Translations under genes and position numbers: made by a program | Source: Lichina pygmaea | Taxonomy: Eukaryota; Ascomycota; Lichinomycetes; Lichinales; Lichinaceae | Direction of reading: 5' to 3' | NCBI GenBank assembly: GCA_963422465.1 | Contig: OY730172.1 | Coordinates: forward strand, 558,001 to 622,000 | Length of the DNA: 64,000 nt | The notes under the pieces: model-generated | Database searches by the model: none | Told to the model about the DNA's origin: nothing | Seen by the model: the letters and a program-made list of their open reading frames with translations, nothing else | Part shown: positions 22,861 through 61,932 of the stretch, piece after piece | Position numbering within the stretch: position 1 is the first letter of the stretch | How the letters are laid out: every line of letters starts with the position of its first letter

Positions 22861-22913
22861 TGTGGAGTTATAAGATCACCATGAAGTTCCTCGCCGTCCC
22901 TTGCGGCACCGCA
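22861..22913 (+). promoter_or_regulatory. Upstream block shared by the two secreted paralogs
   Basis: Starts TGTGGAGTTATAAGATCACC, about 110 bp before the ATG at 22972, with a TATAAG at its centre. The same block, about 80 percent alike by eye, lies about 120 bp upstream of the paralog at 60.6 kb. Conservation at the same distance from both starts suggests a core promoter or leader carried along in the duplication. Confidence 0.6.
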
Positions 22914-22971
22914 GGACAAGGGAGCAGAGTCGCCAAATAGAAAAGTGACAGCCGACTGAGGTCTCAAAACC

Positions 22972-23534
22972 ATGCATCTTGTCACGCTCTTGTCTGTGGT
23001 CATCACCCTATGCTTGATGCAATTAGTGGTGGGAGCTCGACTCAAAATGCCTCCTGCCTTGAAAGAGTGCATATACGCTAATATCCCTGAGGAGAAGATC
23101 TTGGTATGTGTCTCCATTGTTACCCACCAGATGCTTCTGTTTCAGGACTGTCTTGGCTGAGATGACTAACATTGCTTAAGCCATCCAAAGCCATCTGGGG
23201 TGATGGTGTTCCGAAATCGGTCAGAACCAAGGTATGGAATACCGCCGTCACATCTTGTAGCCATATCGATGGCTGGTCATCATACTACTTGGACCCAGCC
23301 TACGAAATCCTTTGGGTGGCACTTGATGAAAAGTACCGTCCCTCGGCTGCTGAGGATGACGATAGCTACCAGCAAATACAGCAAATCAGCCTGAACAACC
23401 TTAGGGAGCTCGGTTCGCAATTGGGCAAAACTGCGTTCTCTTACATCTCGCCGCCTCGGGAGAAGGGATATATGCGTCAACCTGTGGGTCAGCGTGCGCT
23501 ATTTCGAGGAGCCCTTCGGCCACGAAGTTTATAG
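22972..23534 (+). CDS. Short secreted protein, paralog of the 60-kb gene
   Basis: Two exons, 22972-23103 and 23181-23534 (77-nt intron, phase 0), 161 residues, with no internal stop. The signal peptide MHLVTLLSVVITLCLMQLVV (cut near VVG-A) is followed almost at once by LKECIYANIPEEKI, then after the intron VWNTAVTSCSHIDGW, a variable acidic stretch and QISLNNLRELGSQLGKTAFS. Each of these has a counterpart in the 296-residue protein encoded at 59643-60672 (EKCIIDNIPEEEI, TWNAAVNNCQRVKGW, QFSVNNLKGAVVDGL), with the intron in the same place and of nearly the same sequence. The middle of the long protein is missing. Two cysteines are kept in both mature proteins and could form a disulfide. Function unknown; small secreted, lineage-restricted proteins are often effectors, which is inference only. 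Confidence 0.68.
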
Positions 23535-25577
23535 GTGATTGCAAGAGGTTGACACCAAGCCTGCTACATGTAGTCCACGAACATCCTCCAGTGCATGGTG
23601 ACACTATTGTTCTCACCCTCAGCAGGAGCCTGTTTATCGTTTTGCTCTTATCAAAAAGTAGAAATTGTATTTAGGAGGAAGGAGGTGCTGCATGACTATA
23701 CCCACCTCATCATCCATGCCATCCAAAGCAACATGTGTCAACATGGCTCTGGAAAGTTTTTAACCATCCAGGAAATTGGTTAAGTCCACCTGTTTAAAGC
23801 TGCCACAAACACCGTTTTGGCCAGGGGGACCACCTCAGGATCTCTGTTCATAGACATTTTTCCGCTGCCCCCCATCACCCGACATACTGCATAGAGATCA
23901 GCGGTCCATGTAACATAGGTGGTGTAAGCTACGACGATCAAGTCACACAACATCATACGTACGTACTCTGCAAAGAGTATGTCGAAGACCCCCCACAAAG
24001 GCACAAAAAGGCACATCTTTTTCTCTGAAGGTCTATGGATGTATGGATATGTTTGGTGCCCTGAAGGCTGCACAGCACCACGCTATGTGGGATTGATGAG
24101 AACTGGAGGTGTTTGTTGGGCAGATCATCACATACCCTTCAACTGTTCCTAGGAACATCGGGCCATGAACCAAGGTCTGGGCAGATAGCAAGAGCCGGGC
24201 GAGCTATCTCCGGACGCTGCTGTAGTCGCAGGAGGATTTGAAGTGGGCTTCAGATCACTGCCCCGTAGGTGAGGGCTAGTGTAGGTATTTGGAGAGCATG
24301 ATTGGTGTCGTGAACTGTATACTCTGGCTCTGCTGTAGAGAGATGGCCTGCTTCTCTCAGGAAGGCGAGTACGTAAGTGTCAGCTGTTTCAGTGTCTGAA
24401 AAGTCGTGCATGCATGGTGGACTAAATATGCAACTTGGAGTGCGGATGCAAGTGCAGAATCATACCTTGGTTGAGAAACATTCATGATAGCCACTGCTCA
24501 TGTACCTTGAGTGTGCTGACACAAAGATGTGTTAGATACCAAGCAAAGTGTGTCAAGGTGTGCCGCAAGAGGTGGCAGCCATTTGCGTATACACTGGCTC
24601 GGGCAAGGTACGTGCAGAATCATCCCACCCTCTGCATTGTGTTCACGTGGAGATCACCACATTTGCCCGAGTAAGTATCCTATGGCATAAAGGCGGCATA
24701 GACCGACTGGATCTGTCCTATGAAATCCAAGTCGAAGGCAAGCAGCGCTGGGGGCTCAAGACTGAATGATATGTTCCCCAGCAGTGACAGTATAACTGCT
24801 TCCACCCTGGACAGGTGTCGGCGTAAGACTCTCCAGTGACGCTCGCAGCCATTGCGTCGCATCGCTCCCGCGTCGGACAACCGTCTGCTGAAAAGAAGCG
24901 GCGTATCTGATAGTCCGAGAGGGCGGCAATGCTACTCTCCATTATTGCCATGGGCCAGGGCTAGTGGAGTATGGCGTGAAGTCGTGGCCAGTAGAGCTAT
25001 GAGGGCTGACGTAGTGGTCCGTAGAGAAAGGGAAGGAGCATGAGAACGAAGGCTACACGGACTGTTACAGTTCTTCCGTTGTAATTGAATAGTGTAGAGC
25101 TAGTGCTAAGTACTGTAGGTACTCTAGGAGTCACGCGCTCTGATAGGAATCAGGAAAGAGTGAACTATGATAGACCTTTCATTTGATCTCGCAACAAAGG
25201 AGGACTTGCATCACAAAGTGAAATGCACATCATCAGTCCGGGAGTCGACGTCTTGGCAAAACGCGAAGGATGAACGACCCAAGCTTATCAGCGCCTCCAG
25301 GATCCCTGGCAAGCTCAAGAGACTGACTGGTTGCTGCGTACAGAAAACTGATGGCTCAAAATCGTGCAATCAAGTCGGAAAGCATGATAGAGAGCTCTTG
25401 ATGAGTTGTCCGAAGAGATTTTCGCTTGAGGATTGCTTACGAGTATACGTACGGTATACCGTACTTCTTTAAGGTGCAGTCGTATTACTAAAGAAACTGC
25501 ACCATATCACCATTTGGCACCTTGTGGAATATATATCAAAAATTGCACCTTTCCCCCATCGAAGTCATCCATGATAA
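23535..25577. other. Two-kilobase gene desert
   Basis: From the end of the short secreted gene to the tRNA. The open frames here (such as 24435-24674) lack introns, codon bias and any family resemblance. No repeats with clear ends were found, though the sequence composition resembles decayed transposon DNA. Confidence 0.45.
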
Positions 25578-25675
25578 GGTCGGATGTCCGAGCGGTCCAA
25601 GGAGGTACGTTCAGGTATCAATCTGAAGTTCGTATTTGCGGTTTCGCAGCGTGGGTTCGAATCCCACTCCGGCCA
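25578..25675 (+). tRNA. tRNA-Leu (anticodon CAG) with 14-nt intron
   Basis: Folds fully by hand. Acceptor stem GGTCGGA with TCCGGCC (one G-T pair) and discriminator A; D arm TCC/GGA around GAGCGGTCCAA; anticodon stem GTACG/CGTAT; loop TTCAGGT with anticodon CAG at 25612-25614. A 14-nt intron, 25616-25629, sits one base 3' of the anticodon, the canonical eukaryotic position. The variable arm TGCG-GTTT-CGCA makes it a class II tRNA, and the T arm is GTGGG-TTCGAAT-CCCAC. B box GGTTCGAATCC is perfect. The CCA is not encoded beyond the natural A. Several T5 runs follow from 25683 and fit RNA polymerase III termination. Confidence 0.95.
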
Positions 25676-26206
25676 TGGTTTCTTTTTGTTCTTTTTGGTC
25701 TTTTTGGCTTCCTCTCTATCCTCGTAAAGGGGGAACTACGTACTTCCGTAGTACGGTCCGTACCTGGTCCTCAACTTACGGTCAAAATGCCCCCTTCGGT
25801 TACGTACCTGAGTGTGCCCATACGTACGGCGGTAATCACGTGACCACGGTATCGTACGGTACGGTACGGTACGGTACGTACGCATTACCGTACCGGTAAG
25901 GATTCATGCGCTTAGCCTTCCCTTAGCTCAGCTTTCGGTGACGTCCCCACCTTTGGGTCAGTGGTGGCGTCAATTATGGCAGCATTACCCATTGCGGTCC
26001 ATGCGGCCAGGTCAGACCACAAAGACGCTTGAGATTTTGGTTACCGTTCCACGGCGTTTTTAGGACGTCGTGATCAGCGTCCCAGAGCTTCATCTATCGC
26101 ATAAGCGTGGGCCACCTGGCCAAGTACCATATTGTCGATGGATGCAGAAGTGGCCGCTATCTGACACCGGCGACATCGGGGCGAAGCCCGCGGCACATGC
26201 ACAGGG
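25676..26206. other. Intergenic with pentamer satellite
   Basis: Starts with T-rich Pol III terminator sequence, then a dense group of GTACG pentamers (about 25852-25880, five tandem units) and flanking TACCG words. The remainder is upstream of the GH76 gene. Confidence 0.6.
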
Positions 26207-28027
26207 ATGACACGCTGGCTCTGCCGTACAAAGCTGCTACTGGTGCTAGCGCCGCTACTCGTCCTGATATGTAACGGTATCGACGCCCGTCGCCCACCGT
26301 CCCAGCGGAGCCTACAACTAGGACCCGAGCACCTCGAGGGTGCTCAAGCTGTCGACCGTGGCTCGGTTCAGCCCGAACGAGGCGCGAACGATCGAAGCCC
26401 ATCCAATGCCGGCCATGATGGACTTCCGCGCGAGCCGCACGAAGAGGAAGGCGAGACGGCGACGGGCGTCGATGCGCTTCTCGACGCGCTGGATGTCATG
26501 CAGACGTCCTTCTTTGAGCTATGGCTGGGCACATGGCCAACGGCCATCGACTGGACCGCCGCCGTCCTAGGGACGCATATCTCCGCGATGCTGTCCACCC
26601 TATCCTCTCATCTAGGCAGCTCGAGTCGGTCGGCCGCTGGGACAGGCGAGACTCGGGACTGTCAGAGCATCGAAGCACGGGAGAATCTGATTGATCGATA
26701 CTTTTCCCAGCTGATGGGTTTTTACTTCGGCCAGGCCACCCTAAGCTTGCGCCATCAGGCGTACGACGACATGCTGTGGGTCGTTCTAGGCTGGCTCGAG
26801 AGTATCAAGTTCATCGTGTCGCATTCGTCGCACCACCAGACCAACGGTTCTGCGGGGGACGAAGGAAGTCGACAGAGCGGCTCGTGGCACGGCACGCAGT
26901 TCATACCTGCCTTGGCTCACCGCGTCCGCATCTTCTACGATCTCGCAGCGAAAGGTTGGGACACGGCATTCTGTGACGGCGGCATGGTGTGGAACCCACG
27001 ACTACGACCCTATAAGAATGCCATCACGAACGAGCTATTCATCACCGCGAGCGTGGCGATGTACCTCCATTTCCCAGGCGACGGAAACTCGTCCCCTTAC
27101 ATCGCGGCGGCCGGCCCGCCTTCGGCGAGGGATCACGACCCGAAGTACCTGAAGGCAGCCGTCGAGGCGTACGATTGGCTCGTAGCGAGCAACATGACCA
27201 ACGCCTTGGGTCTGTATGCCGATGGCTTCCACATCCGAAGGGATGGGCTGTGGGACGGCGAGCGCAACCATACCTCATGCGACATCCGCAACGAGATGGT
27301 GTATACGTACAACCAAGGTGTTCTGCTCTCCGGATTGAGGGGCATGTGGGAGAGCACCGGCCTGACGCGGTATCTGGAGGACGGCCATATCCTCATCGCC
27401 TCCGTCGTCGACGCGACCGGCTGGAACGAGAAGGAGATGATCCGATCTCAAAGCTCACGTTGGGCCGGCCTCGGCCGGGACGGCGTCCTCGAGGATTTCT
27501 GCGACGCGTCCGGAACCTGCTCGCAGGATGGCCAAACGTTCAAGGGCATCTTCTTCCATCATCTGGCCACCTTCTGCGCGCCTCTAGGGCCGCTCTCGCT
27601 GCTGCCGGAGGCCACCTCAGAGCCAGCGGTCGCGCTGCGGCACGACGAGCGCTGTGCGGCGTATCGTCGCTGGGTCGCACACAACGCCCGTGCCGCGTAC
27701 CAGACCAGGGACCCCGAAGGCCGATTCGGCATGTGGTGGGGCCGTTCCTATCCTCATCCGCCGGCCAGCGACTGCGACGACGTTCTCGTGGCGTTGCCTT
27801 TCGGTGCGGTCGATTATCGCAACATCGAGCCTAGGGAGCCATCGGGGTGCAAGCACACTTGGGCCGAAGTGTCCGGACAGGACGAAGGGGCTGAGGGTGT
27901 CACCAAGGCTTCCTGGCCCCGAGACGTCAACGATCGCGGACGCGGTCGCACCGTCGAGACGCAGAGTGGAGGTCTCGCCGTCCTGCGCGCCCTGTTCGAG
28001 ATTGCAGAGCTTCCAACGTCGAGGTAG
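26207..28027 (+). CDS. GH76-family secreted alpha-1,6-mannanase-like hydrolase
   Basis: A single-exon gene of 606 residues. MTRWLCRTKLLLVLAPLLVL ending near CNGIDA is a signal peptide, which also supports the start. After about 60 variable residues comes the (alpha/alpha)6 GH76 domain: YFSQLMGFYFGQATLSLRHQ, the adjacent aspartates in AYDDMLW (D187, D188, matching the catalytic Asp pair of GH76), FCDGGMVWNPRLRPYKNAIT, NELFITASVAMYLHF, MVYTYNQGVLLSGLRGMWES and LEDFCDASGTCSQDGQTFKG, IFFHHL. GH76 enzymes cleave alpha-1,6-mannan; fungal members (Dfg5/Dcw1 relatives) act on cell-wall mannan or GPI glycans. No hydrophobic GPI-attachment tail is present, so this one is probably secreted free, unlike Dfg5. 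Confidence 0.88.
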   Translation: MTRWLCRTKLLLVLAPLLVLICNGIDARRPPSQRSLQLGPEHLEGAQAVDRGSVQPERGANDRSPSNAGHDGLPREPHEEEGETATGVDALLDALDVMQTSFFELWLGTWPTAIDWTAAVLGTHISAMLSTLSSHLGSSSRSAAGTGETRDCQSIEARENLIDRYFSQLMGFYFGQATLSLRHQAYDDMLWVVLGWLESIKFIVSHSSHHQTNGSAGDEGSRQSGSWHGTQFIPALAHRVRIFYDLAAKGWDTAFCDGGMVWNPRLRPYKNAITNELFITASVAMYLHFPGDGNSSPYIAAAGPPSARDHDPKYLKAAVEAYDWLVASNMTNALGLYADGFHIRRDGLWDGERNHTSCDIRNEMVYTYNQGVLLSGLRGMWESTGLTRYLEDGHILIASVVDATGWNEKEMIRSQSSRWAGLGRDGVLEDFCDASGTCSQDGQTFKGIFFHHLATFCAPLGPLSLLPEATSEPAVALRHDERCAAYRRWVAHNARAAYQTRDPEGRFGMWWGRSYPHPPASDCDDVLVALPFGAVDYRNIEPREPSGCKHTWAEVSGQDEGAEGVTKASWPRDVNDRGRGRTVETQSGGLAVLRALFEIAELPTSR

Positions 28028-28939
28028 ACATAGCTCACGCCACTTGGGGACGAAGCAATCTGGGCTTGTATCTGTTGTCATTCTGTCGATAGTTACCCTG
28101 CATCCAGCTCGGCGTCTATATCAAGTCGGCAAGGAACGCGACACCCTCGAGTCCTAGTGACCGGATCAAATTGAGAAAGGAGTTCCATCACTTGGGGGGA
28201 CAAAGAAAAACTCGATCTCTACTCTGCATAACAACCATCGAGGCATTTCCGCGTGACACGAGAAGCTCTCATCCGATGAACGACCATGAGTACGTGCAGC
28301 ATTCAGCCTCAATTGAATAGAGCCGTTGAATCGTTGGCAGTCGTGGCACTGTATTTCCGTACGGGGAGTCCGATAAGATTCAGGATCTCAGGAACTGAAC
28401 AGAAAAGAAGAAAAGATCTGAGATCCCTCCAAAGTTTGACCACCCTGAAGTTTGGCCACCGGAGTTGAGCACACTTGGACCGAGGGGGGGGGGTCATGCT
28501 TATCGTGACGGTGTCTGACGTGAGTTTCTGGGCTACCTTACCTTACGTAATCTATACTGGTACTGTAGTAATCAATTAGTGAAACGCGGTCGGGCTATCA
28601 AACCTTAATCGAAAGGCTAAAGGTACGTACGTACAAGGCACGTATCGTGTACCGATACGCTTCGGTAGGGCTGATGTGGCTACGTAATGGGCCAACAGAA
28701 CGGATCGCATTCGAGGATGGCCAACACCTTGAGGTGATGGCATATCCCATCAACATCTGATCTCCTTCGAAGACTTGTGCGATGACCGTCGATGATGCTT
28801 AGCCCGTCGGCCGCAGAAGCAGCAGCGCCGGTAACGTTTCGGGCCAGACTGAACTGAACCGCACCTCTTTCAACTCTCTGTTCCTACGATACAATACCGG
28901 AACTCCCCCCCACCCACACACGCACACACACACACACAC
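28028..28939. other. Intergenic upstream of HOS2
   Basis: Contains several GTACGTAC words near 28625 and a short (CA)n run at about 28910-28938 that abuts the HOS2 start codon. No gene seen. Confidence 0.55.
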
Positions 28940-29391
28940 ATGGCCCCGGCGCTGGCGACGGCCTCCTCCTCCATGCCCCTGTCGATGCCGCCGTCGTCGT
29001 CGAAGGCGGGAATCGTGCAGGAGTACGCGCCATGGCCGGCGGGCACGACGGCGAAGAACATCACGGTCGGGCAGGTGACCGGGCTCGACCGGCGCATCGA
29101 GGCCGAGATGGAGCGCAACGGTATCGAAGCGCCGCGGGGCTATACCGTGTCGTGGCACCACGATGCCCGCGTCGAGCGCTCCCACTTCGGTCCCAGTCAC
29201 CCGATGAAACCGTGGCGGCTGCATCTCACCAAGAACCTCATCTTCGCCTACGGCATGCATCGTGCCATGAGGTGCGCCAGGATCCGTCCGGCCACTGAGC
29301 AGGAGATGGCGGCCTTTCACGCAGAGGACTACATCGAGTTTTTGAAGACGTGAGTTTTTTTCACCATCTTATCCTGTACGGTTGGGAAGAA

Positions 29392-29427
<36 letters not shown>

Positions 29428-30623
29428 AAGGGAGGGCGGAGGGGATCATATGCTGTGTGTCGGAGGAAAGAAGAGCAAATCTCAAGCTGACTTTGAAAGG
29501 TGAGGGGTCCCCGCCTCCCATCGCCTTCGCCCACCGCGCTAGAGTCACGCCGGAGAACATGCAGGACTTGAACCTGGTCAAGTACAACCTCGGCGGAGAC
29601 TGTCCGGTCTTCCACGGGCTCTACGACTTCTGCACGCTGTCGGCGGGCGGGTCCGTGGACGCGGCGCGGGCGCTGAACGGCAAGGTCTCGGACATCGCCA
29701 TCAACTGGTCGGGCGGGCTGCACCACGCCAAGAAGGTGGAGGCGTCGGGGTTCTGCTACATCAACGACATTGTGCTGGCGATCCTCGAGCTGCTGCGCTT
29801 CCACGCGCGGGTGCTGTACATCGACATCGACGTGCACCACGGCGACGGGGTCGAGCAGGCCTTCTGGAGCAACGACCGGGTCATGACGCTCTCCTTCCAC
29901 AAGTACGACAAGGACAACTTCTTCCCGGGCACGGGCGCGCTCGAGTCGTACGGGCCGCGACCGTCGCACCGGGCCGGCTCGCACTTCTCGCTGAACGTAC
30001 CGCTCAAGGACGGCATCGAGGACGCCGACTACGTCTGGCTCTTCAAGCAGGTGGTCGAGCCGACGGTGCGCATCTACAACCCGTCCGCGGTGGTGCTGCA
30101 GTGCGGGGCCGACTCGCTCGGCGGCGACCGGCTCGGCTGCTTCAACCTGAACATCGAGGCGCACGGCGCCTGTCTTGGCTTCGTCAAGTCCTTCGGCCTG
30201 CCGCTGCTGGTGCTGGGCGGGGGCGGCTACACGGCCGCGAACGTGGCGCGGCTGTGGGCGTACGAGACGGGCCTGTGCATCGGCGCGCACGAGCTGCGCC
30301 AAGACCTGCCGGCGCACGCGCCGAACCGCGACGTCTTCGGGCCCGACCACAGCCTGCTGCCGCGCCTCGGCGACGCCACCCGCCGCTTCGAGAACAAGAA
30401 CACCCAGCACTACCTCTTCTCGCTCGTCCAGACCATCCGCGAGTACCTGCGCTACGTCGAGCGCTCGCCCTCGGTCCACATGGACTACGTCCCGCCCGGC
30501 ATCGACCGTGTCCGCGCCGACGTCGACCGCGAGCTCGACGAGTCTTTTCGCGACTCCGACGACGGCCGTCGCCAGCTCGAGCGGGGAACGGGTACGGGCG
30601 CGAGGGGACAGTTGGCCGCCTGA
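28940..30623 (+). CDS. HOS2: Class I histone deacetylase, Hos2 type
   Basis: Two exons, 28940-29349 and 29543-30623 (193-nt intron, phase 2), 496 residues. GYTVSWHHDARVERSHFGPS and HPMKPWRLHLTKNLIFAYGM open the deacetylase fold; INWSGGLHHAKKVEASGFCY has the tandem active-site His, LYIDIDVHHGDGVEQAFW the zinc Asp/His, CGADSLGGDRLGCFNL the second zinc Asp, and GGGGYTAANVARLWAYET the active-site Tyr. All catalytic residues are present. The VTPENM junction and the GDCPVFHGLYDFC block are typical of Hos2/HDAC3 rather than Rpd3. Hos2 is the deacetylase of the Set3 complex, acting on H3 and H4 tails in coding regions of active genes. The N-terminus is extended by about 40 Ser/Pro-rich residues. The intron carries a 32-G tract. 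The stop at 30623 leaves a short tail. Confidence 0.95.
29395..29426 (+). repeat. 32-G tract inside the HOS2 intron
   Basis: Uninterrupted run of 32 G on the coding strand, 45 nt after the donor, so it would be transcribed. It can form quadruplexes in the pre-mRNA. True length may differ, as with all long homopolymers. Confidence 0.85.
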
Positions 30624-31302
30624 ACCACACCCCCTCCTCCTCCTCCTCCGCCTTGCCCGGCTATCTTTGTCTTTCCCCTCTTGCCCTCTCCCCCCTCCCA
30701 CTCCTCCTAGAGGGGCTTGTATACGTGGCTGCGTCACACTCCCATTACGCCCCACGCCCACGCCGCACGCCCACGCCCGCGCCCCCAGTTCCAGTCCCGA
30801 CATTTACGACCGTTGCGGAATCTGAGACTATCTGAGAACCACATATCCTACAGCCTCGTAGGCGTTTTGATCTCTCCAACCTCAACCGCTGGCTCTCCCT
30901 GGGTGCTCAGCCTTTGTGTGCGATTTTCAGACTAACGATTCTTTAATACTACGACTCTCCTACTACGACTCTCATATTGTTTCTCGCCTTGGGTGCCGTG
31001 GCACGTTGGCGCCCATCCCAAAGACGTATGAGGCGTACGGGGTGTACTCCCAAGGATATATCCCCTTTGTGGCTTATGGTACTCGCCTAGCTTTTTTTCT
31101 GATGATATCCACCATCTTTCCCTGCAGTGTGTTTGGTTGGACGATTCGGGATCAGACAAAAAGTTGTAGACGAGGTAAAATGAAGCTTTTCGAACGGGAA
31201 CTTGACCGTTCTGGTTCTGCAGGTCTATCCCTAAATCATGGCGAAATGTGCTGGCTTGGTTGACAAGGAAGCGGTAGAAAGGGGTAGCGTGACTGCTCAC
31301 CC
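30624..31302. other. Convergent intergenic, HOS2 and OSBP 3' flanks
   Basis: CT-rich after HOS2, including CACGCCCACGCC repetition near 30750-30785. No gene seen. Confidence 0.6.
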
Positions 31303-33622
31303 CTATCCTCGTTGAGAAGACAGCCCGTCGTCCGCGTCGACAAAGTCGTCGTCGGACTTGCCCTCGGTGCCTGTGCGGGCTACGGGCGCCCCTTTGGTCT
31401 CGCGCTTGGTGTCTGACGCCGCTGCTCTTGCAGGCACCGGGCCTTCCTGCTCGAGTAATCCTTGGGTTTGGTGCTGAGATGCCGAGAGATGCGAGGATGG
31501 GGCATGTGAAGACGAGGATGACGTTGGCAGTAGCGGCTCCGCTGACCGTGCCGATGCCTGTAGAGGTACTAAAGGCTGCTGTAGGCCTTCTGTGCCACCT
31601 GCTCTGGACTGTGATATGGCGTCTATCGGATGAGGGTCATGGATGGTCAGATTTGCGAGGCCTTGCGTCACGGGTATGGTTTCGCTAAAGTCAATCAGGT
31701 TGCTCTCGTTCTGCACCTGCTTCGCTGGTCCGTTGGTGCTTGCGGCAGGCGCGGCCAGCGCTTGTGATGCGTGAACACTTTCCGCTGCCGGTGCCGCTGG
31801 CTTGCCGTGACTGGACAAAGTTTCTGTTTCTTGCTTGGTTGACGGCAGTCGATCACCATCCCGTTCGGACCGGCTGGATGCAGTCCGGTCGGACGAATCG
31901 ACCTGTGGCCTCTGAGCATCGAGCGATATGTGCTTGATCGAAGTGCCGTTCTTATCGCCCTGGCCAACAATCGGGGTTATGGCCAAGATCTGCCGGGTCT
32001 GGTCTTCTGACGTCTTGCCATCGCTAAACAGTCATCAGCAACGAGTATCTGTGACAATAATGAGGCATATATAGCTCATCACCTACATCTCGGCATCCAG
32101 AATCCAGTCCAAAGCCTCTTCACCCTCCTCGGAGCCGCCTGGGCCACCCCTGATCGGCCTGAATAGCCTCGGCTTCCACTCGACACCCTGTTCGACTCGC
32201 TTCGCTGCCTCGGCTCGTTGTCGATCCTCGATCACGGTTTTTTCGCCAGTGGCAGCATCATGATTCCGCTCTTTCAGTGCCGCCACTACTTTCGACCAGA
32301 GGCGTTGCGACTCGCGCTCGTCTTGCTCCTCTATCGGCCTGACCGTCGGAGGCGTTGCTTTGGACGTGGAAGCGTCAAAGAGCAGCTCTTTGCTTCCGGT
32401 CTGGAGGAAAAATCAGCGAAATGAGCTGGTGCAGGGGTGTCCTGGTCTTTGAACTTGTGCCACGTTCCGCGTACCGCAACATTTTTGATGAACATCTCGT
32501 CCGTCCAGTTCCCAGAGAGCTCATACAGAACCTCCTGGGTCTTCTCATTTTTGATTGTGCCACTGATGGCATTGTAGCCGCCGCTGAAGTACCCTTTGGT
32601 CTTAAAGTCTATATCGGCGGCCAGATTGTGCTCCGGACAGCGAACGATGCTCTGATCACCCAGCTCATATTTCATCTTGCCGAAGAGGATGCCGCGGGCG
32701 TACATGTTGGGTTGCGTCAGGATGCTTCTCCCGGGATATGATTAGCAACAGCGATGTGGAGTATGAAAAGAAATCTTACTATTTCTCGCCGCCACGGTTG
32801 AGGAGTCGTAAGATGGCTATTCCTTCCATAAGACTGGCCGCCGAGTTTCCTAGGAACTTGCTGCGTGGCTTCAGGGTGCCGTCAATCCGGATATAATGGT
32901 CGGGGGCCATGTAGAAGTAACTCGACTTAGGCGGATGGTGAGAAGTCTGCTCGGCAATGTAATATCCGCGCGTGTGGTCAGGAAACTCCCAATAGCAGGT
33001 GTATGTCTCTCCGAGGATGGGATTCAGCGGCTTCTTGACGCCGCTATCCCAACGTCAGTCCACACTTCCTGGAATCATACAAACCCGGTTCGCTAGCCGT
33101 AGATCACACATACGGAGGCTTGATGTGCCAACCACTGAGGTAGAACTTGACGACCGACACGAACCGCTGGACCTCGTCATCGATCTCGGGCATAGGGAGC
33201 AGTGTCTCAGGGTGTGCCATGAAGCTAATCCAGATCAGTCATGATGTCCATTCCGGGTGGAGCTGATGAGCGGCCGCAGTCATCGTAGACTCACTTCGTG
33301 ATCCTCTCCAACATCGACCTGGGCTCTAGAATGAAGGTAGGCAAGACCACCCGGCTCAGATCTGCTCCTGGTCGCAGTTGTGATATGATGTGCGACAGAA
33401 CTGCACCTGGTAAGCCATGCTTCGTGCTCCAATCCACTCTGCAGACATACCGTTGCCCTGATCAGGCTCGACCTCGGTGGTGTCATCGTCACCGCCGGAC
33501 AAGTCGGGTCGAGACTCGTCGGTGGCACCGCTCTTCTGGTGGATATGCTGGCCTTCAGCAAATTCAGACGAAGTGTTAGCCGTCTGCGTCAGACCGAGCA
33601 GAACCTGGTGCCAGCTCGCCAT
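31303..33622 (-). CDS. Osh-type oxysterol-binding protein (ORD only)
   Basis: Seven exons on the minus strand: 33622-33451, 33361-33295, 33224-33114, 33043-32780, 32724-32475, 32400-32087, 32023-31303; all phases agree, 632 residues. The lid and start of the ORD are [20 protein letters not shown], then [27 protein letters not shown] and the family signature EQTSHHPP (about residue 165), closing with [20 protein letters not shown] and WKPRLF. No PH or ankyrin domain precedes it, so it resembles the short Osh class (Osh4-7). These proteins exchange sterol or phosphatidylserine for PI4P between membranes. A 240-residue Ser/Ala/Gln-rich tail follows, ending with DFVDADD, a near-canonical FFAT motif that would bind ER-resident VAP/Scs2. 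The exact Osh subtype is not assigned. Confidence 0.92.
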
Positions 33623-35900: not shown

Positions 35901-35902
35901 TA

Positions 35903-39078: not shown

Positions 39079-39350
39079 GGGCGTTGGTCGGGTGTTATAC
39101 TTCTTTTGAGGGGCGGCGATAAATGGAAACGTGTCAAGCGTGTGTCGTTGGTTCTGCGCCCAGATTCTTCCTCATCTCGTTGCGGCGATGGTACCGGGCG
39201 TCGAGAGGCAATGATGGCTCGAGCATAGCAGGCCACTGTGAGTCCGAAAAGCTCACATCTAAACGTTCTAACCATTCTTTGGCGTCTAGAGTAGTCGTTT
39301 GGGAGCACATCTCTTGCGGGAAGGAGAAGGGAAAACAAGATATCCACCTC

Positions 39351-50235: not shown

Positions 50236-51542
50236 TACAATGATTACAACACGGAGATCGTAGTTAACAATAGGCATACGCCTTCAATTGGGGATTCTGG
50301 AGACGACTAGTGATCAGCGGCAGTGAGTAGCAATGCTAGTAGCAGTTGAACAAGCTCTACGAGGTAGCCCCCACAGTGCCCCGATGTCCGAAGGTGCCCA
50401 GGCCGCAATCGTGTCCGCGACGTTCGACGAAACTGCCACGGCTCGGTTCGGCTTTAGTCAGCTACCGTACGGTATGTATTACGTAAGTGCATCCTGCTGA
50501 GCGATACGTATCTATGTTTAGTACGTATGTACCACTTCGCTTAGGTGGAAGGTGCAGATGAAACACCGTTTGGCGAGCATTGGTTCTTTCTTATCCCTAC
50601 CAGATGATACCCTGGATGTCGTAAGTCATGTCGCGGGCGGGGACAGTATGTCTCCGCAGAGAACGACCCAAAGGGCGCCGTCGAAACTATAGTACGCAAT
50701 TGACGGCCGGTGGCACAAATGTTGTGCGGGGTCATGTCGACCCTGTATCGCATACGTACAATCAATTGTTCCTTCGACCGGCCAATCTACTCGTACAGTA
50801 CGGAGCAGAGGGCGTTTGGTCTGGAGTCACTGGAATCCTAGGGTCTTGGACTTTCCATCGGAGAGGAGGCTATGCGGAGCCAAGTCTCATCGGTCAGCAT
50901 TGCGCCACCTCTGGCCCGAACAGATTGCCGCGACTAGTGTTGATAATGTAGTCCTGTACTACCGCACTTACGTTAGCGTCACGGAAATACCAGTACTCGT
51001 ACGTTTGTACTGTAGATTGAGCCCCTTGGGGACGTTCTTGTGGGTTGTGGTCGTCGTAGCATGGTTCGGCGTCTCAATTGAAGCTTGATCCGTCGTGGCA
51101 GCAAGAGACGTACTTGGTGCTTGTGAGATGGAGCCGGATTTCAGGGTCCCGCGTTAGCGCCTTCTGGAGATCCATGAGGGGCCGCACAGGAGCACACGAC
51201 ACAGATCACCGCGAAACAGGAACCGCTCAGATTTGCTGTGCCGAGTACAGCGACGCCAGAACGAAGGAGGACCGTCATCAGGAGAAGCCCCCGTGGTTGG
51301 CCCATCTTCAGCGACGTCACGGTGAGTGATGCTCTCCATCCCTTGCGACGGTGGCACATGGGGTCGCATGCCCGGACGGACGGACGGGGCAGCAGACTGA
51401 CCTGGTTCGCAGGACATCGCATCGATAGCATTGCTCCGCGGTGGCCTTCGACGATAGGCCCTGGACGCCCCTGTTCCCTCTGCCGTCCGTGGGGACTGTC
51501 GTCTGGACGACCTGACGATCTTCAGCCCCACGCGGATCCACC
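50236..51542. other. Intergenic, promoter and leader of the 51.5-kb gene
   Basis: Contains GTAC-rich words near 50465-50525. From about 51070 the GC content rises and several frames open, consistent with a long leader, but no separate gene could be supported. Confidence 0.45.
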
Positions 51543-52433
51543 ATGCCAGAAGAAGGTTCGGGTCGGAATCATCACTTCCGAGGCCTGGCCAAACAGAACT
51601 GGAAGGGCAAGATCTTCTCCAACGACGAGTCGTTGGAGAAGGCGGCGAACGCGAAGCTGCGCCTGGACGACGACCTCGATGACTTCTTGAGGCCTTCGGT
51701 GCATAGGTCGGCCTCGCATCGGGCCCTGAACGGCCCTCCGGCGCAGCAGCTCGGCCGCATCGATACTACCAAGGCGTCGCGGTGGCCTGGAGCCAGCGAG
51801 ATCGACGCCCGCCATCCGGCCGACTCTCAGGCTGGCGCGAACGAGCCGCACGCGCGAGCGAGGGCCGTCAGTGCGAAGCGGAAGACGCGGAGAAGGCAGG
51901 GCCTGACCGTTAGCTTCAGCGATGCTGAACCGGAGGTCATCGGCGAGGGCGGCGTAGAGGCCGAGGCGCCCCCTCGGGACATCTCTCGCTCGCGCAGCCG
52001 TTCCCGTTCTCCATCGCACGAGCCGGCACCGGGCAGCGGCCACAGGGCGACGTCGGTCCATCGGGAGGCCATGCCGACGTTGTACGCGGCACCTGCTGGC
52101 CCTGGAGAGGACGGGCGAGCCTGGGGCTCGGTGGCCCCCGAGATGGCTCGGCCCGGCGCACAGCCGGTGCCGGTCGGCCAGCAGACGCGTCCGCAGCCGC
52201 CTCCACGAATCCTGACTGGAGATCTGGCGTCCGAATACATGGACGTCATCGGGACCGGGATCCCAGACACCCCGACCATGGAGGACCGTGCTCGTGCCCA
52301 GGCGGACATGAGGGCCGAAGAGGGACAGGCCCTCCATCGGGGCCGCTCGCAGCCGATTCTGGATGACGAGGACGACGTTTCTCGGCAAGTGACGACCGAA
52401 AAGACTCCCACCTGGCCGATTCCTCCTCCTCCT

Positions 52434-52465
<32 letters not shown>

Positions 52466-55132
52466 CCCATCACAGGAGCAGCCTGCGTCGACCGCGCCGT
52501 CACAGCCTTCCTACCATCTTTTCCCCGCTCCCCTGGCACGGCGGGCCTCGTCTCAAGGCCCTTCGGCTCCGCCTCCGCCGCCGAACGTGCCACGGCAGCC
52601 ACAGCCGATGTTGGCGCCCGATGCCAGTGCAGCCGCGTATCGCGTGCCAACGCCGTCGCAGCCGGCGACCTTGCGGAAGCCAGGGCTCGCGTCGTGGCGC
52701 TCGGCGGCATCGGCCGTGAGCCACGACGCGCTGGGTGATTTCTCGTCCAGGATTCAGCACCTGAGCCGTGTCTTCCAGCTCGCGGCCGAGTCTGTGCGGC
52801 CGCTCCACGACGCATCCTTGGCGCAGTGGATCCGTGCGTGCTTGTGGTGGTTCATCAAGGGCCGCAGCGAGCTTGAGCTCGCCATCCGGGAACGTCCGTC
52901 GACCCCCCCGGACGGATCGCCGAGGCTGAAGCAATCCTTCGTCGACCTCGCCAAGGCCTGGTGGATCCTTGAGCGCGTCGCGCCCGAGCATCCCGACGTG
53001 CGACGCCACGGTAACGGCTCCGTCGGCTCCATGATCTCGATCGTCAGGCTCCACGGGGACGAGGCGCTGGCCGAGGTGCTCGAGGTCCATCAGAACATCT
53101 ACAGCAAGTTCCGGGCCTTGGCCATGTCGATGAAGAGGAACGATTTCCTGCCGCCCGATACGGACGAGCTACTGCTCGCCCAAGGTCTGAGCACCACCGT
53201 CTGGATCCCGTACCCCTCCTTCACCCCCGAGGTGTCGAGCCTGCTGGCCGGCGCCGACTCGCGCTCTCTTGTCCTCCAGACCCCGTCGCGCCAGGAACAC
53301 CTGGCGGACCTGATGCCGCTCGGGGACACGGCTCGCCACTACGACTACGGCCGGATGTTCGTCGACGTCTATCCCACGGACAGGGACAACCCCTCGCCCG
53401 AGCTGAAGATACCGTGTCTGCTCTCGGTCATCAGGGAGCCGGAACACCGGCGGCCCAAGCTGAGCATCGTCAGCCAGGGCGACCTGATGCAGATCCTGGT
53501 GCGGTCGAGGAAGGAGCTCGGCCCGACCTGGAACGACGTCACCTGGAACGACCGACGACGGGTGCTCGTCGTCAGGCTTTCGTCGAGAGCGCTCAGGCTA
53601 CACGTCCAGTTTGCCGAGCGTGACTTCAAGAATCTCAGGGGCATCTACGACCAGACCCAGCAGGTCGAGGCCAGCCTGCAGCCGGAAGACGACGAGGAAC
53701 AGGTGTTCGGTGGCTCGCTCAAGACGTTTCAGCTGCTCGAGTCCAACCGTCCGTCCTCACGCTTCCCCGACACGGCCGCCAACAGCTGTCGCGTCAGCCT
53801 GTTCGAGAAGCAGGCCGACTTCGCCGACGGGGCCGGTACGCGACGACTTCACCGCGGCCACAGGCTGCTCGTCGTCACGAAACCCAAGGTCAAGACGCTC
53901 AGCAGCGTCAACCAGCGGGTCGGGCGCCAGCACGTGATCCGGTTCGGTCTGCCACGTGGAGACGGCAACGGCGCCGGTCTCTCGCTGACCGTTACCAAGG
54001 ACGGGAAGCCGCGGTACATGATGATGGTCCTCCAGACCGCCGACGAACGCGATCAGCTCCTGTCGATGCTGAATCGGAGCTTCGTACAGTCCGACGAGCT
54101 GGTCGTTGCGGACGTGCCGCTGCAGGGCCTGTTGGTCAATGCCGCCGCCGGACAGCAGGCGCTACCTGGTCACGGTGACGAAGCGGTGGCGGGAATGGGA
54201 TGGAATCGAGTCAGGATCATCAACAAGGACCCCGACGACCCCGACCACGCCCACCCGCAGACCGTGCGCTCCGAGAACCTGCGCATCTGCGCGGAATCGC
54301 GCTGTGGGACCGTGACCGACCGAGTGGATCTCGGTGAGGGCCTCGGTTTCTTCGGTCGCTCTGTCTCCCTGCTGACGAGTGGTAGGCCCTGGACAGCTGC
54401 AGATCCACCTGGATGTTGGCAGCTCTCCGGAGATCGACATCTACCGTGCGCCCCAAGAGGACATGACGATCTCGGTCGCCGAGAACGAGGCGTCTCGCGG
54501 GGTCCCGGAAGCGCTCGAGCAGCTTCTCAAGGCCATCAGCACCTCGAACACCGTGCGAACCTTTACCTTCCGCTCTCTCGCAGGTTCGGGCTCCTCTGCT
54601 CCGCATCTCCAGGGACTCTTCTTCCGGCTGATACCTGCTGCTATGTAGACCTGCACACCTTCCAAGCCGCGGTGACGGGGTTCGCGGTGCTTTTCGACGG
54701 GTACGTATGACGTGTGACGGCCAGGTTCTTGAACAAAAGCTTGCTGATGCGACGTCCTCGCTCGACAGCGTCGTATCGACATTTGCCATATCCCGGAGGC
54801 GCATGGTCGTACCGATATACAAGCGCTGGGAGGCCAGCGCCACGCGGATCCAAGTGGTGCAGCAGGACAAGGTATTGCAGCTGCTCGCGTTCTTCAGCGA
54901 TTTCAGCCATGGCACGTGCATGAGCTTCCAGCTCAAGAGCACGGACGTCTACGAAGGCTTTGGTCGGTCCGGGAAGCACGTCGTCCGCTTCGTCGACGCC
55001 AAGTTCGCCCTCCCCAAGGGCGACGAGTCGGACAGCCGCCACTTTGTCTGCCTCGATCTGCCCGAATATCCCGGCGAGCACGACGACATCTTCATCGCCT
55101 TTGACAGCAAGGAAGGTCTGTCAATCACGTAA
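51543..55132 (+). CDS. Large conserved fungal protein of unknown function
   Basis: Four exons, 51543-54333, 54386-54583, 54649-54700, 54769-55132; phases agree (1, 1, 2) and the product is 1134 residues. The head MPEEGSGRNHHFRGLAKQNW and KGKIFSNDESLEKAANAKLR looks conserved. Residues 90-390 are disordered, with SRSRSRS and a 16-Pro run (CCG repeat near 52425-52468). The folded part begins near ALGDFSSRIQHLSRVFQLAA and includes ACLWWFIKGRSELELAI, LSIVSQGDLMQILVRSRKEL, TWNDRRRVLVVRLSSRALRL, and at the end LHTFQAAVTGFAVLFDGVVS and FAISRRRMVVPIYKRWEASA then IQVVQQDKVLQLLAFF. I recall similar long Pezizomycotina proteins without assigned function. Several beta-rich blocks could be PH-like, but that is not proven. 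The short third exon (52 nt) is supported by frame and by the LFDG/FAISRRR continuity. Confidence 0.82.
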
Positions 55133-56421
55133 ACCCCTGTGGTTCTCAGTCTCTTTCCTCGCCTTCCGTCCGGAGGGTGCTACGGATTCGTTTCCCAACT
55201 TTTCTACCAACGTCATTGTACTATCGTATCCCTACTTCCCGCAACGTCGCTAGCTAACGCATCTTGTGATTCTCGTCTGGTGCGACACACAGAGTCGACA
55301 AAGTTCGAACAAGCCATGCCGGCTCCGGTCAGTCGTGTCTCACGCATGGCCTCTCTTCGGAAATAAGATTCGGCCATGCCCCATCAGGCATATCGTCTTA
55401 CACGTGGGGTTCCCGGGGAGGGGGTGAATAAGGGGAAGTGCTTCTCATACGCCACCCGTTTACGCGTCTACGGCAGCTCGTTCGTTCGTCCGTTCTTTTG
55501 GCGCGGCCTTTGGGCTCTGGGAGTCGGTCTTGGGCGGTCCTCGGCGGAGGTCTGAGGAACCGGCGGATTGGACGTCTGGAGGTTTGGAAGTCTGGAGGTC
55601 TGGGGGCCTTCTGGGGCCTTTTGCGAGGGTGCGGTTGGGTCGTGACGAGAGGGGGGGAGGCAACACTGCAAGAACATGAGCATCCGTCAGCTCTTTTCTT
55701 GACGGTCGGTCACATCTTCTTTGATTCTCGTCACGATCCAAGTCTTTTTTTTTTCCCTTTCTTGTTTTATGTTTTTTTATATTACGAGAGAGCGCACGCA
55801 CGCACGCACGCACGCCCCCATGATGTCCACGACAGGAACCTCTCTTTCCGCTTCAACTTTGCTTCCGGAAGGCAAGGAGGACTACGTACGTATGTACTTC
55901 TCCTCTTCTTCCTACTGTACAGTATGTACTGGTACTTTCTGTCCCGTTCGTGCCAGTCGCATCGATGACGAATTGAGTGGCTGCTCATGTGCTACAACTC
56001 ACTCTATTACAGTACGCTATATATACTACGTTTCTCTACTTCATTGCACGGTGGCCTCTTCATCTCCTCGTCAATGGGCGAGAGAGCCAGCGGTGTCGTC
56101 GCTTTGGTGTGGTGGATGTCCCTTCGGTGTACGAGTAGTGTCTCCGCTGTGGCGTGGCACCTGACTGAGGCTATCATGTGATCAAGTTGCGCAGAGGAGT
56201 CGGGCCACGTCGAGACAGACGAGCAAAGCAGATGGATAAAACAAACAACGGAACATTCAAACGAGGTTTTCACCGGAAGATGAGAGGTGAGAGGTGAGAG
56301 GCCGAAGACGGATGATGGAAGATGGGCGATGGAGGGGTGGAGGGGCTGGGGGGGGGGAGCACGGACCGCGGCGTATCTGCGGCTGTTGTGCTCGGTAAAA
56401 GTCGGCCTTACCGTTGTCGAT
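55133..56421. other. Intergenic with (ACGC)n microsatellite
   Basis: Includes a repeated GGTCTGG/TCTGGAGG stretch near 55560-55620, a T-rich block with (ACGC)n at about 55793-55816, and GTACGTAC words near 55885. No gene accepted. Confidence 0.5.
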
Positions 56422-56430
56422 GATAATTAA

Positions 56431-57059
56431 GGGTCCTGTTATCACGACACCACAGTTTGTTAGCACGACCCTACAACTTATGTTAGCACGACCTCCCCCC
56501 TAGCGTTGTTAGAATGACACCCCATTTTAGCGCTCTTTGAGTATTATTAGCGACACACCCTGTAGAGTACGACTGTAGTCTTCCTCGCTTATGTAGTTTC
56601 ATGAGTACTTTAAGTCTCACTAAAATAGCCTGAAAGCTTAAGTAGTCCTGATAATTCTGAGGAGCACGTCTTCTGTGGCATCCTAAGAGACCTGGCAGAT
56701 ACGTATTTCTACACCCCGAAAGAATCATGTACAGAATCAAAATCAGATCGATGATATGCGACCATGGAGCTGGCTGTTAGACGTGACTTGTAACAAATTT
56801 TGACTGTAAATTCTGTGGTGTGTGGCTGCTCCAAGACTTCTGACATTTATGGCCTCTTCAAGTCCGGAGATACCTAGCTTTATGTGGAGAGTCTGGGCAA
56901 ATCGATGTATTCATCTAAGTTGGCACGGGCGGTACAGCTGTACTGTACAAGGTGTGTCGCTACTAATGCTTAAAGAGCGCTAAAATGGGGTGTCATTCTA
57001 ACAACGCTAGGGGTTGTAGGGTCGTGCTAACAAATTGTGGTGTCGTGATAACAGGACCC
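56431..57059. mobile_element. Mutator-like non-autonomous element with long inverted ends
   Basis: A 629-bp element with inverted ends of about 120-140 bp, beginning GGGTCCTGTTATCACGACAC on the left and ending in its complement at 57059. It is flanked by a 9-bp direct repeat GATAATTAA (56422-56430 and 57060-57068), the target length typical of Mutator-like elements. Each end carries several spaced copies of a TGTTAKCACGACC-like word; the left end has one copy more than the right. The interior has no supported reading frame. Confidence 0.88.
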
Positions 57060-57068
57060 GATAATTAA

Positions 57069-58429
57069 TTGCAGCCAACTTGACAGCTACCATACAAGAG
57101 AAAAGGTCGCGCTAGAAAAGCTTTGCCATACGCATGGGCTGGCCGTATGACGGCATGGGGAACCATTAGTAGAGGGAGGACAGTATCGCGGTTCCCTGCT
57201 CCTGTCCAGTCGAAGCTGTCGTCCCTACAGCACAGTCGATGCTGTCTTTCCGGCAGTACAGAGTACTGTAGACGACTTTTGGGGTTCATATGAACGCCAT
57301 CCAGCAGCTGGCCAAGAAGACACCGCATGACAGCTGCTGTACGGTGTCGTTTTTGATGCGATGGGGCTTTGGAGGCAGCACGCCGTACGGTACCGTCACT
57401 GTACGGTATAGTACTGTCCCACTGGCGCTTCACCACCCTGCCGTCCACGGCAAAAGCGGTGCCACCGGTCCACCGAGGGACAGTGGTTTTTGTGATGTTC
57501 AGATACATCGCCAACGGTACTGTAGCTGGGTGCTTCTGACATGCCGGAGGGAGACAGGTAGTGACGGTACGTACGGTAGTGGGCATGGTGGGTTACCGTG
57601 CTTGGCCAAAGTTGGTGCCGGCCCGTGGTTGTCCGCAATCAGGCTACCAACAGTGGTATGACACCCGTCTACGTACAGCCTCATACCAAAGCTACTCTGG
57701 GCAGTTCTGTACAATCAGTAGTAGTGCGAGTGCGTCAATGTTTATTGCTCCTGTCACTGCTTTTCCTTCTGTGTGTTCCTTTGGCTCGTATTGCTCCTGG
57801 CGCTGCTGTCCCTTCGTCGTTCCTATGGCTCTTGTGGCTCCTTTCGCTCCTGTCGCTCCTGCCCACGTTGGGGTGGCTGGCTAAAAGAACTGTTGAGTTC
57901 ATCGGACTGCCGGTGTCAATTTACATGGCAACCGGGAGCATGTACGGCTGTACCGAAGTCCGTCGACCTGTGTCGCGACACCGGATCGATCCGACAAACA
58001 GTTGCTGTGGCTATCGGCAGTCCGACCGAAGCCATTGTCGGGCAATGCGGTCCCATAAAGTCCAGTTGCAAACAAGCAGCGTGGGCGGCATTCGGTGGCG
58101 AAGGATGCCGTATTGCGGCGGCTTCTCGGCATCTTTGAGAAGCCACCGGAATGGCCACCAGTGAAACCGCCGTGGTTCATGGGTTGCCATGACGCGCAAG
58201 TGCGGCGGTTCCATCCAGGCCGTATGGCCGAGGTATCGTCGCGAAGCCGCCGGGACCGCCACCAGGAATACCACAACCAGTGATATTGCCGGGTCCCCCT
58301 ATGGCGACCCATGATCCCACCCTTCAATATGCAGGAGCATCCAAAGGCTGATCCTCCGCCGTCTGGTTATCGTGCCTGTCGACTCTGCGCGGAGGCGTCT
58401 ACAGCCTGATGCCTCGTCTCTTTCTGCAA
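57069..58429. other. Repeat-like DNA without a supported gene
   Basis: Several 70-190-codon frames overlap on both strands (for example 57065-57586 and 57899-58327, both minus), none with recognised domains. GC skew and position between transposon remnants suggest a decayed mobile element. Not assigned. Confidence 0.4.
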
Positions 58430-59257
58430 TAGCGGACATATTATGGAAGGATCTTCTGCCAGATCATCGACAAGCATGGGTGATTTGAGGCACGCCACGG
58501 AGCCTCGTTCACCTCGCAGAAATACAACCTGATGCACCTCACACGATCCCCAAAGAAGTTCAACATGGCGGCCAGCCTGCGGCTCCCCGGCGGCGACAAA
58601 GCCCCATCCCCCACTGTCCGGATTCTAGGCGTCCTGCTGGACACAAAGCTATGATGGGGGCCCCAGGATCTCCGACCGAGCCCTGCAGCAGAGCTGCGTC
58701 TTAACAGCAATCAGCGCCTCTACATGGGGGGCCAGCTTTGAGTGGGCCCGGCTGGTGTACAACACAGTGGTGCGACCCAGCCTTACCTACAGGTCAACAA
58801 TATAGGCACCACTAGAGGGTACCCTGCGGCCAGCCGGCCGCCACTGGATTGGGGAATCTCTGGAGCAAGTGCAACAACAATACCTCTGGACAGTCACCAG
58901 AGCCTCCAAGGTCACCAGCCGACAAGCCCTAGAGAAAGAAGCAGCAGTCCCCCACCTACAGGCACACATCACACATCTCCAGCTACAAGCACATGCCCGC
59001 CTGGAGGCAATTGGGATATGCCAGAAGATCAACACAGCTTGTGATCAAATCCGCCAGTATCTCACCCCACAGAGAGGCTGCCGCCACACCCCCGGAGTCA
59101 CACCAGGCAAATTCCAACATCCAACACAAATAGGCCAAGGGGATCCTATGGCAGCAACAATAAAACATAGACAACACCACAACAGCACTCAGTCTTTCCC
59201 CCTGGTCAGACAACCCCAGGCCGCACTCTGTGCCCCCCCCCCCCCCCCCCCCCCCCC
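58430..59257 (+). mobile_element. LINE ORF2 fragment (reverse-transcriptase end), copy 2
   Basis: Broken plus-strand reading of the distal reverse-transcriptase region of a Tad-like non-LTR element: ASTWGASFEWARLVYNTVVR with PSLTY, then GIGESLEQVQQQYLWTVTRA and LEKEAAVPHLQAHITHLQLQ with AHARLEAIG. Stops and shifts interrupt it (for example after PDSR and at YRSTI). It ends in a 25-C run at 59233-59257 without a recognisable LINE tail. It covers a part of the element upstream of that seen in copies 1 and 3. Confidence 0.78.
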
Positions 59258-59642
59258 ACAGTCACTATGGCAAGCATACCAGCTAGAAAAGACAACATCA
59301 CTTGCCCCCTGATTAGCATTTCAAACAACCCTCCAGAGAAGCACATCGATACATACTTGCTCTGGACTGATAGTGTGGACAGTTGAGAATTGGGATAGAT
59401 ACTGTGTTCATGCAGCACCTCCTTCCTCCAGAACAGAAAGAGATGAAATATTAAGAAAGGGAGTGAAGATAGGTCGGTTGGATGATGCTCACCACCAGCT
59501 ACACAGTCTGCTTTGTGGCAAGAGAAGATGATGAAGAGGCCTCCGCCGAGGCTGAGAATAATAGTGTGATCATGTGCTGGAGGGTGTTCGTGGGCCAGGG
59601 ATAGCAGACCTGGCGTCAACCTCTCGAAACTACCTATACACT
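59258..59642. other. Intergenic between LINE fragment and long secreted gene
   Basis: No gene or repeat recognised; 3' flank of the secreted-protein gene. Confidence 0.5.
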
Positions 59643-60672
59643 TCACATCCCAAGGCGGGCTCCTCGAAGTGGCATACCCTGACCTATACCAGTACGTCGA
59701 CCCATACCCAAAGTAGGTATCCTCTGCTCCGACTTGAAGGCACGGGCAATACCTCCACGCAACCCGTCAACCACTGCCCCCTTAAGATTGTTCACGCTGA
59801 ACTGCATCGGTGTTTGAGGGCCTTCGCTGACATGTTGTCTCGATTCTTTGTAGGGTACACGAACTCCGAACCACCAACCCTCCCACTCCTGCTCGTCTGC
59901 TACAAGCTCTGGGACCCAGCCTTTGACACGTTGACAGTTGTTGACGGCAGCATTCCATGTCTTGAGTGTGACTCCTGATTTACCTCCGAGCGGGGTTTCG
60001 AAGAGTGTCTTCAACAGTGTTAGTCATCTCAGTCAACACAGTCTTGACAACAGAAGCATCTGGTGGGGAACAATAGAGACACGTACAAAGATCTCTTCCT
60101 CAGGTATATTGTCGATTATGCACTTTTCCAAATCATAGTTTCTCTTAAAAATCTCGGCAAACCAGTAATTATATAAGACGTCAACTTTGCGGTTCTTTCC
60201 TGGGGAAGCATTCCGCTGGCCCGCCGATACTGGGTTCTGGGTGCTGATGCGAGAGAGCTGTCCATTTACACGCTCAAATCCGGCTCGCGTGTCGCTGGTA
60301 TGATCCCCCAACTGTTTAAGGTTGAACTAAGCTCTTATTCGATGTTGGAACTCTTACAGGTTACAAGCTTACCTGTTTCTGGGTCGCCGCTTGACTCTGT
60401 CGAAGTTCGTCGAGCTTCTGAGCGTTCTGAGTTTGACCATTCTGAAGGTCTTTAAGCTTTCTGGAGTTCGTCCTCTGGTTGTTCCAATTGAAGAGACTAG
60501 CGCCTCCCGCACCAAGACCCACAGCCCCGAGAAAACCAGCCACTTTATCAAGGCTGTTTGAGTTGGACTGCTGTTGTTGTTGTTGTTCTTCCCCTTGTGG
60601 ATGTGGAAGTCCCACCACTAATGGTGTCAGAGACAGGGCAACGATTGCAGACAGGAGTGCGAGCAGATGCAT
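59643..60672 (-). CDS. Secreted protein of unknown function, long paralog
   Basis: Three exons on the minus strand, 60672-60373, 60311-60087, 60008-59643, all in phase 0; 296 residues. MHLLALLSAIVALSLTPLVV is a signal peptide cut near VVG-LPHP. Then come a Gln/Ser run (EEQQQQQQSNSNS), a Gly/Ala-rich hydrophobic stretch (VAGFLGAVGLGAGGASLF) that could be a membrane hairpin or amphipathic helix, and a Gln/Lys coiled-coil-like part (LKDLQNGQTQNAQKLDELRQ). Exon 2 ends YDLEKCIIDNIPEEEIF; exon 3 has TWNAAVNNCQRVKGW, WEGWWFGVRVPYKESRQ, MQFSVNNLKGAVVDGLRGGI and an Arg/Gly tail. Two mature cysteines are conserved with the 22972 paralog. No domain recognised. Its setting among LINE and MULE debris and a sister copy 36 kb away fit a lineage-specific, duplicating family. 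Confidence 0.75.
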
Positions 60673-60740
60673 GGTCTCGAGAGCTTACGGTAGTCGGCCG
60701 TCGTTTTCTCTTGGCCACTCGAGCTCCTTGTTGTACGATA

Positions 60741-60795
60741 CGGTACCGCAACGGAGAGCTAGGAACTTTATGGTGATCCTATAACTCCGTGGGGG
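60741..60795 (-). promoter_or_regulatory. Upstream block of the long secreted paralog
   Basis: Read on the minus strand it starts CACGGAGTTATAGGATCACC, about 120 bp before the ATG at 60672, matching the block at 22861-22913 (TGTGGAGTTATAAGATCACC) with a TATA-like centre. Confidence 0.6.
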
Positions 60796-61690: not shown

Positions 61691-61932
61691 TCAGTATGAT
61701 CTCTCACGCCCGCGGCCCGCCGCCGCCCTCACCTCGTGGATCCTACGCCACGGAGTTCTCCCCCAGTTCTCCTGCGCCCAGGAGCAGCTGGATACTGGTT
61801 ACTAACCAGTCACCCCCCACGTTCTGTAGATTACTCGAGAGGATAGCGCTGCCCGAGGCGCTGCAGGGAGAGGTTTTTTACTCGGTTGAGTTTTCCTAGC
61901 CTAATTCTATAGTTGACCCAGCGTAGCCTAGA

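Follow-up and report, generated by a model that had tools for sequence, protein, structure and literature searches.

The window, that is, the whole stretch of 64,000 nucleotides analysed here (C4:558001-622000 of a genome of 32.47 Mb in 8 contigs), contains two related genes for predicted secreted proteins. The short one, gene A, lies at positions 22972-23534 on the plus strand (C4:580972-581534) and encodes 161 aa in two exons, separated by a 77-nt intron (23104-23180) homologous to intron 2 of the long gene. It is preceded by an upstream block (22854-22971) with a TATA-like hexamer at 22868-22873, kept in the other six intact genes and two decayed loci of the family described below, and it is followed by a 3' flank (23535-23756), which is also kept in the family and has C7 as nearest relative. 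The long one, gene B, lies at 59643-60672 on the minus strand (C4:617643-618672) and encodes 296 aa in three exons. Its intron 1 (60312-60372, 61 nt) is found in four of the seven intact members (58-61 nt) and its intron 2 (60009-60086, 78 nt) in all seven (77-79 nt); all the introns of A and B are in phase 0. On the same strand, gene B has an upstream block (60673-60788, TATA-like hexamer at 60784-60779), a distal block of 57 nt (60797-60853) and a 3' flank kept in the family (59391-59642). Coordinates, frames and the common intron are all as given in the initial annotation. As to the fungus, a search by 5.8S had no result; its tubulin and its ribosomal protein L3, the latter matching best the PDB chains 8oo0, 7olc and 7r81 (Chaetomium and Neurospora), indicate Pezizomycotina.

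Comparing the DNA of the two genes by BLASTN, we found similarity in three separated blocks. One (83% over 126 nt, E 2e-33) covers the end of exon 2 and the intron, another (74%, E 2e-26) the tail and the 3' flank, and the third (73%, E 1e-21) the upstream region and the signal-peptide codons. A and B are real paralogs. They had been described as a pair; the paralogy stands, but the family is larger. A search of the genome for more copies, by DNA and by protein and retaining as intact members the loci that have canonical splice sites and a frame readable through from start codon to stop codon, gave seven intact genes and two decayed loci on four contigs, and both counts are lower bounds (at least seven and at least two). 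Besides A and B, the intact members are C1a (C1:4691501-4692485, minus strand, 281 aa), C1c (C1:512967-513752, plus, 235 aa), C7 (C7:2399048-2399892, plus, 235 aa), C5b (C5:3034106-3035177, minus, 310 aa) and C5c (C5:3300131-3300970, minus, 253 aa). The intron-2 boundary was set by homology, and not by the best alignment score, in C7 and C1c. The decayed loci, C1b (near C1:4464473) and C5a (near C5:1938051), keep the upstream block next to a decayed frame, and they indicate turnover of the family. At both of them the noncoding block survives beside the broken frame, so that it can outlast the gene. The members are scattered over the four contigs, none of them at a contig end. Three further loci, C4:3315939 (E 4.1e-4), C2:4648950 (E 0.019) and C3:1734205 (E 0.24), gave weak protein matches, share no intron, flank or core with the family and were not counted; at the last of them, 67 aa of the N-terminal part match at 28% when low-complexity filtering is switched off, and the match vanishes with the filter on.

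All seven intact members share a signal-like N-terminus (hydrophobic and conserved, as read from the sequence), the phase 0 intron of 77-79 nt, the upstream block and a WNxA...C...GW core. The residues conserved in all of them are C, WNxA, C and GW, and each mature protein has two cysteines. A long N-terminal part, Gln-rich, Gly-rich and with a coiled coil, is present in six of the seven, while A consists of the core only; A, C5c and C1c are without intron 1 and the neighbouring coding sequence. The coding part of C5b contains a 21-nt tandem repeat (positions 1679-1764 of L038, C5:3033200-3036200) that encodes heptads and is a likely source of length change in the coiled coil. Substitution is a larger source of difference in the family than length change.

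The absence of a known domain, claimed from the start, was borne out at the sensitivity of Pfam: none of the seven proteins came near a cut-off for any domain, transposase, integrase and reverse transcriptase included. The sequence search of the PDB gave no relative (best E 1.7), and two fold models (mean pLDDT 53.3 and 61.2), which are weak outside the core, had no match at E <= 0.001 with Foldseek. A resemblance to the IpaD/SipD fold was at E 0.36 or worse, and we treated it as chance. A relationship with heat-labile enterotoxin A was our own supposition and did not come from a match; searching the genome for the corresponding Pfam model (PF01375) gave no match, with none of the 14 controls matched either.

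Then, 5.8 billion proteins were searched with A and with B. Gene B retrieved exactly one protein, P0001, identical over the whole 296 aa and found on two contigs, the longest of 1282 nt. Similarly, gene A retrieved exactly one, P0002, identical over 161 aa, on one contig of 900 nt. Since the genomic frames have stops inside the introns, both proteins must derive from spliced sequence, and from this spliced state we infer that the source contigs are RNA-derived; their source code, 'lgn', we read as standing for assembled public read sets. As both spliced proteins occur in the database without a single difference, transcription of A and B and splicing at the predicted sites are most likely. The initial annotation had named the absence of any product across the junctions as a result that would speak against these genes, and such products exist for both.

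A profile search with the seven members, in which the best 7998 candidates were scored, returned only seven database proteins at E <= 1, all belonging to this family, which supports the earlier reading of a lineage-restricted secreted family. Among them, P0004 is exactly the model of C7, thereby confirming the intron-2 boundary of this gene, and P0003 differs from the model of C5c by one residue. Spliced products are thus present in the database for four of the seven members (A, B, C7 and C5c), and among the matches from these 7998 candidates no spliced protein was found for C1a, C1c and C5b. The remaining three, P0005, P0006 and P0007, are unspliced exon-1 frames on large contigs. P0005 is exon 1 of C5b; P0006 and P0007 are not identical to any member and therefore come from another strain or species. 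P0006, a relative of exon 1 of B from another assembly, aligns to B at 58% and keeps 20 of the 21 residues of the B-type signal peptide.

The upstream block was also compared among the nine loci. Initially, a TATA-containing block had been placed at the same distance from the start of A and of B: the blocks do align, but the hexamer begins at −104 in A and at −112 in B. Using a strict pattern, the TATA-like hexamer was found in six of the nine loci, near −104 in A, C1a, C5c and C5a, at −112 in B and at −114 in C7, and it was absent by the same pattern in C1c and C1b. In C5b a TATA-like hexamer lies at −92. Further upstream, the distal block of about 50 nt is present in B, C1a, C5c and both decayed loci, at −181 to −365. 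Besides B itself it scores at least 62, against a maximum of 36 in 200 shuffles; C5b, with 36.5, is at the noise limit, and A, C7 and C1c are below it. Its presence at a changing distance fits a putative binding region.

We compared the rates of change of coding and noncoding parts over the 21 pairs of intact genes. In exon 3 the median dS was 0.64 and the median dN 0.67, and in the signal peptide they were 0.58 and 0.18, respectively. The median K was 0.30 in intron 2, 0.36 in the upstream flank and 0.35 in the downstream one. Mean identity was 0.751 for intron 2 versus 0.595 for the unambiguous blocks of exon 3; in 19 of the 21 pairs the intron was closer than those exon-3 blocks that aligned best, and the upstream region was closer than exon 3 in 20 of 21. 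The similarity of the introns exceeds that of shuffled sequences (mean 0.75 over the 21 real pairs versus a mean of 0.47 and a maximum of 0.68 over 200 shuffled pairs), and identity among the four intron-1 copies is 0.71-0.81. In this family, coding sequence diverges faster than noncoding sequence. Exon-3 dS is as high as dN, and so part of the contrast between exon and intron may reflect constraint on introns and flanks.

The alignment of exon 3 is uncertain, with 96 of 132 columns ungapped and 60 passing a stricter filter. Codon models, in our own implementation, were run on the exon-3 tree. The one-rate omega was 1.37 on the 96 codons and 1.03 on the 60. M2a was preferred over M1a with 2dlnL 31.0 on the 96 codons, placing 30% of sites at omega 3.5, and with 2dlnL 10.3 on the 60 conservative codons. 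None of 44 null simulations under M1a for the 96-codon set reached 31.0, the highest value being 9.93. These results support diversifying selection on sites of exon 3, with alignment error standing outside the simulations. The diversification proposed for the two genes at first reading is therefore supported by dN above noncoding K and by the codon models.

More in general, the history of the genes was read from trees of the single regions. A and C7 are set apart from the other five members with support 100 in the exon-3 tree and 80 in the intron-2 tree, and the flank trees agree weakly (support 36 and 28). The ends LFRGALRPRSL and LFQGASLRPRSM are common to A and C7. Gene A had been regarded as a form of B shortened by internal deletion. 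Losses do occur at the scale of the family, but A is not B minus some pieces, and its origin as a deletion form of B is rejected, since both exon 3 and the 3' flank group it with C7. Since A groups with C7 in the trees and shares these ends with it, the sequences place the loss of its N-terminal parts inside the A/C7 line. Along the gene, A is nearer to B than to C7 in the end of exon 2 and the intron, and the reverse is seen in exon 3 and the 3' flank. We considered whether A could be a mosaic, joined from a B-like and a C7-like part: a contact-point test between B and C7, chosen after seeing the data, gave a Fisher p of 1.8e-4, and the same test gave 0.064 against C1a and 0.27 against C5c. 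The result is suggestive, and it is weakened by the congruent region trees.

On the whole, we regard it as fairly probable that the family of A and B is small, lineage-restricted, secreted and effector-like and that it diversifies under selection; an effector-like role is plausible. Introns and promoters that stay similar beside fast-changing proteins are typical of the molecules with which fungi meet other organisms. The N-terminal 21-22 residues would direct secretion, and the mature protein would contain a small core in which the two conserved cysteines form a single disulfide. Ahead of this core, the long members would carry a linker rich in Gln, a hydrophobic stretch rich in Gly and Ala, and a coiled coil made of heptads, through which they may touch membranes or assemble with themselves. 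Common control of the genes could come from the upstream block that they all keep. Most likely, the proteins would be used outside the fungal cell in an effector-like or antagonistic way, in a setting of rapidly changing partners or recognition. Meanwhile, gene copies would reach new sites by duplication, become shorter and at times disappear. A more specific version is a long shot: the long members would be secreted two-part membrane-active proteins, in which the Gly/Ala stretch inserts or assembles via a coiled coil tunable in length by heptads and the disulfide core gives target specificity, while the core-only A would be a decoy or protector, binding the same partner without the membrane-active part.

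The contrast between exons and introns could also be explained from the noncoding side, with introns, promoter and 3' flank held by function or gene conversion and the coding sequence drifting under little constraint. The intron K is indeed below the dS of the same genes, both in exon 3 and in the signal peptide, and the switch of A from B to C7 along its length would fit conversion. We consider this explanation unlikely, though: the same split of A and C7 in the region trees makes conversion unnecessary, pure relaxation gives no sites with omega > 1 beyond the null simulations, and in all seven genes the frame is still open and certain C, W and G residues never vary. Another reading keeps the secretion, the fast change, the scattered copies and the assembly-like N-terminal part, all of which fit it, and gives the proteins a task between fungal cells, in self/non-self recognition or mating, instead of one in contact with a host, the rapid change being that of partner recognition. 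In the window, the ten scanned open reading frames are ordinary cellular genes or unmatched, which speaks against it, and we hold it to be rather improbable. That A and B are remnants or cargo of a transposon is very improbable: repeats lie beside both genes and the copies are dispersed, but the seven proteins carry no transposon domain in the Pfam scan, the frames are open and interrupted by two introns, the homology ends near the gene without shared ends, and the 370-nt element located before A does not recur in its full length at any other member, only short pieces of it matching near them.

Searching the fungal literature for such a gene pattern, we found only PMC3582587 relevant. According to that paper, families 8 and 30 of the candidate secreted effector proteins (CSEPs) of the powdery mildew Blumeria graminis show the same contrast, with paralogs more different in exons than in the intron and flanks, together with a signal peptide, few conserved cysteines, a shared intron position, positive selection, repeats nearby and similarity limited to about 1 kb around the exons. 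The family described here differs from the Blumeria CSEPs as follows: the [YFW]xC motif, expected near the mature N-terminus, occurs in none of its seven proteins after residue 21; no ribonuclease-like match was found (with weak models); six of the seven members begin with a long part that has Gln-rich, Gly-rich and coiled-coil segments; and there are seven genes versus hundreds. Viperid three-finger toxin genes, as described in PMC2474615, are alike in having similar introns, diverging exon segments and conserved cysteines; they belong to animal venom and differ in fold and cysteine number, so the parallel is evolutionary only. By analogy, the family would work like fast-changing secreted interaction proteins, and membership in either group is not claimed.

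The family is novel in sequence, secreted by prediction and with spliced products. Slow introns and fast exons within the same genes provide an internal yardstick, by which one genome suffices for measuring adaptive change. If the proteins are directed at a host or a rival, exon 3 would mark the changing surfaces, and the shared control block could reveal the regulator and further members.

A and B are set in the interior of a contig among ordinary genes. Adjoining A are frames for an EndoG-type nuclease (21121-22221, minus strand) and a GH76 protein (26207-28027, plus strand), and further frames in the window correspond to a histone deacetylase, an ING-type protein, a TRP-type protein and metabolic genes. 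At 25578-25675 on the plus strand there is a tRNA-like match (40.8 bits, 98 nt, possibly intron-bearing), with none reported by ARAGORN in its bacterial setting. The repeat-rich DNA originally reported beside both genes was also found: before A, a MITE-like element of 370 nt (22363-22732) with 33-nt inverted ends, 94% complementary, and a high-copy element at 1 kb from B. Two tail-to-tail repeat copies with (GATT)n tails occupy 61702-61933 and 61976-62205, their 230-nt arms being 87% complementary. The frame at 62104-62839, without a Pfam domain, ends like these (GATT)n copies and is presumably the 3' end of a LINE. Elsewhere in the genome, the 232-nt repeat piece has at least 35 matches at 90-100%, with 40 scored out of 341 candidates, and this number of close matches suggests that the repeat has been recently active.
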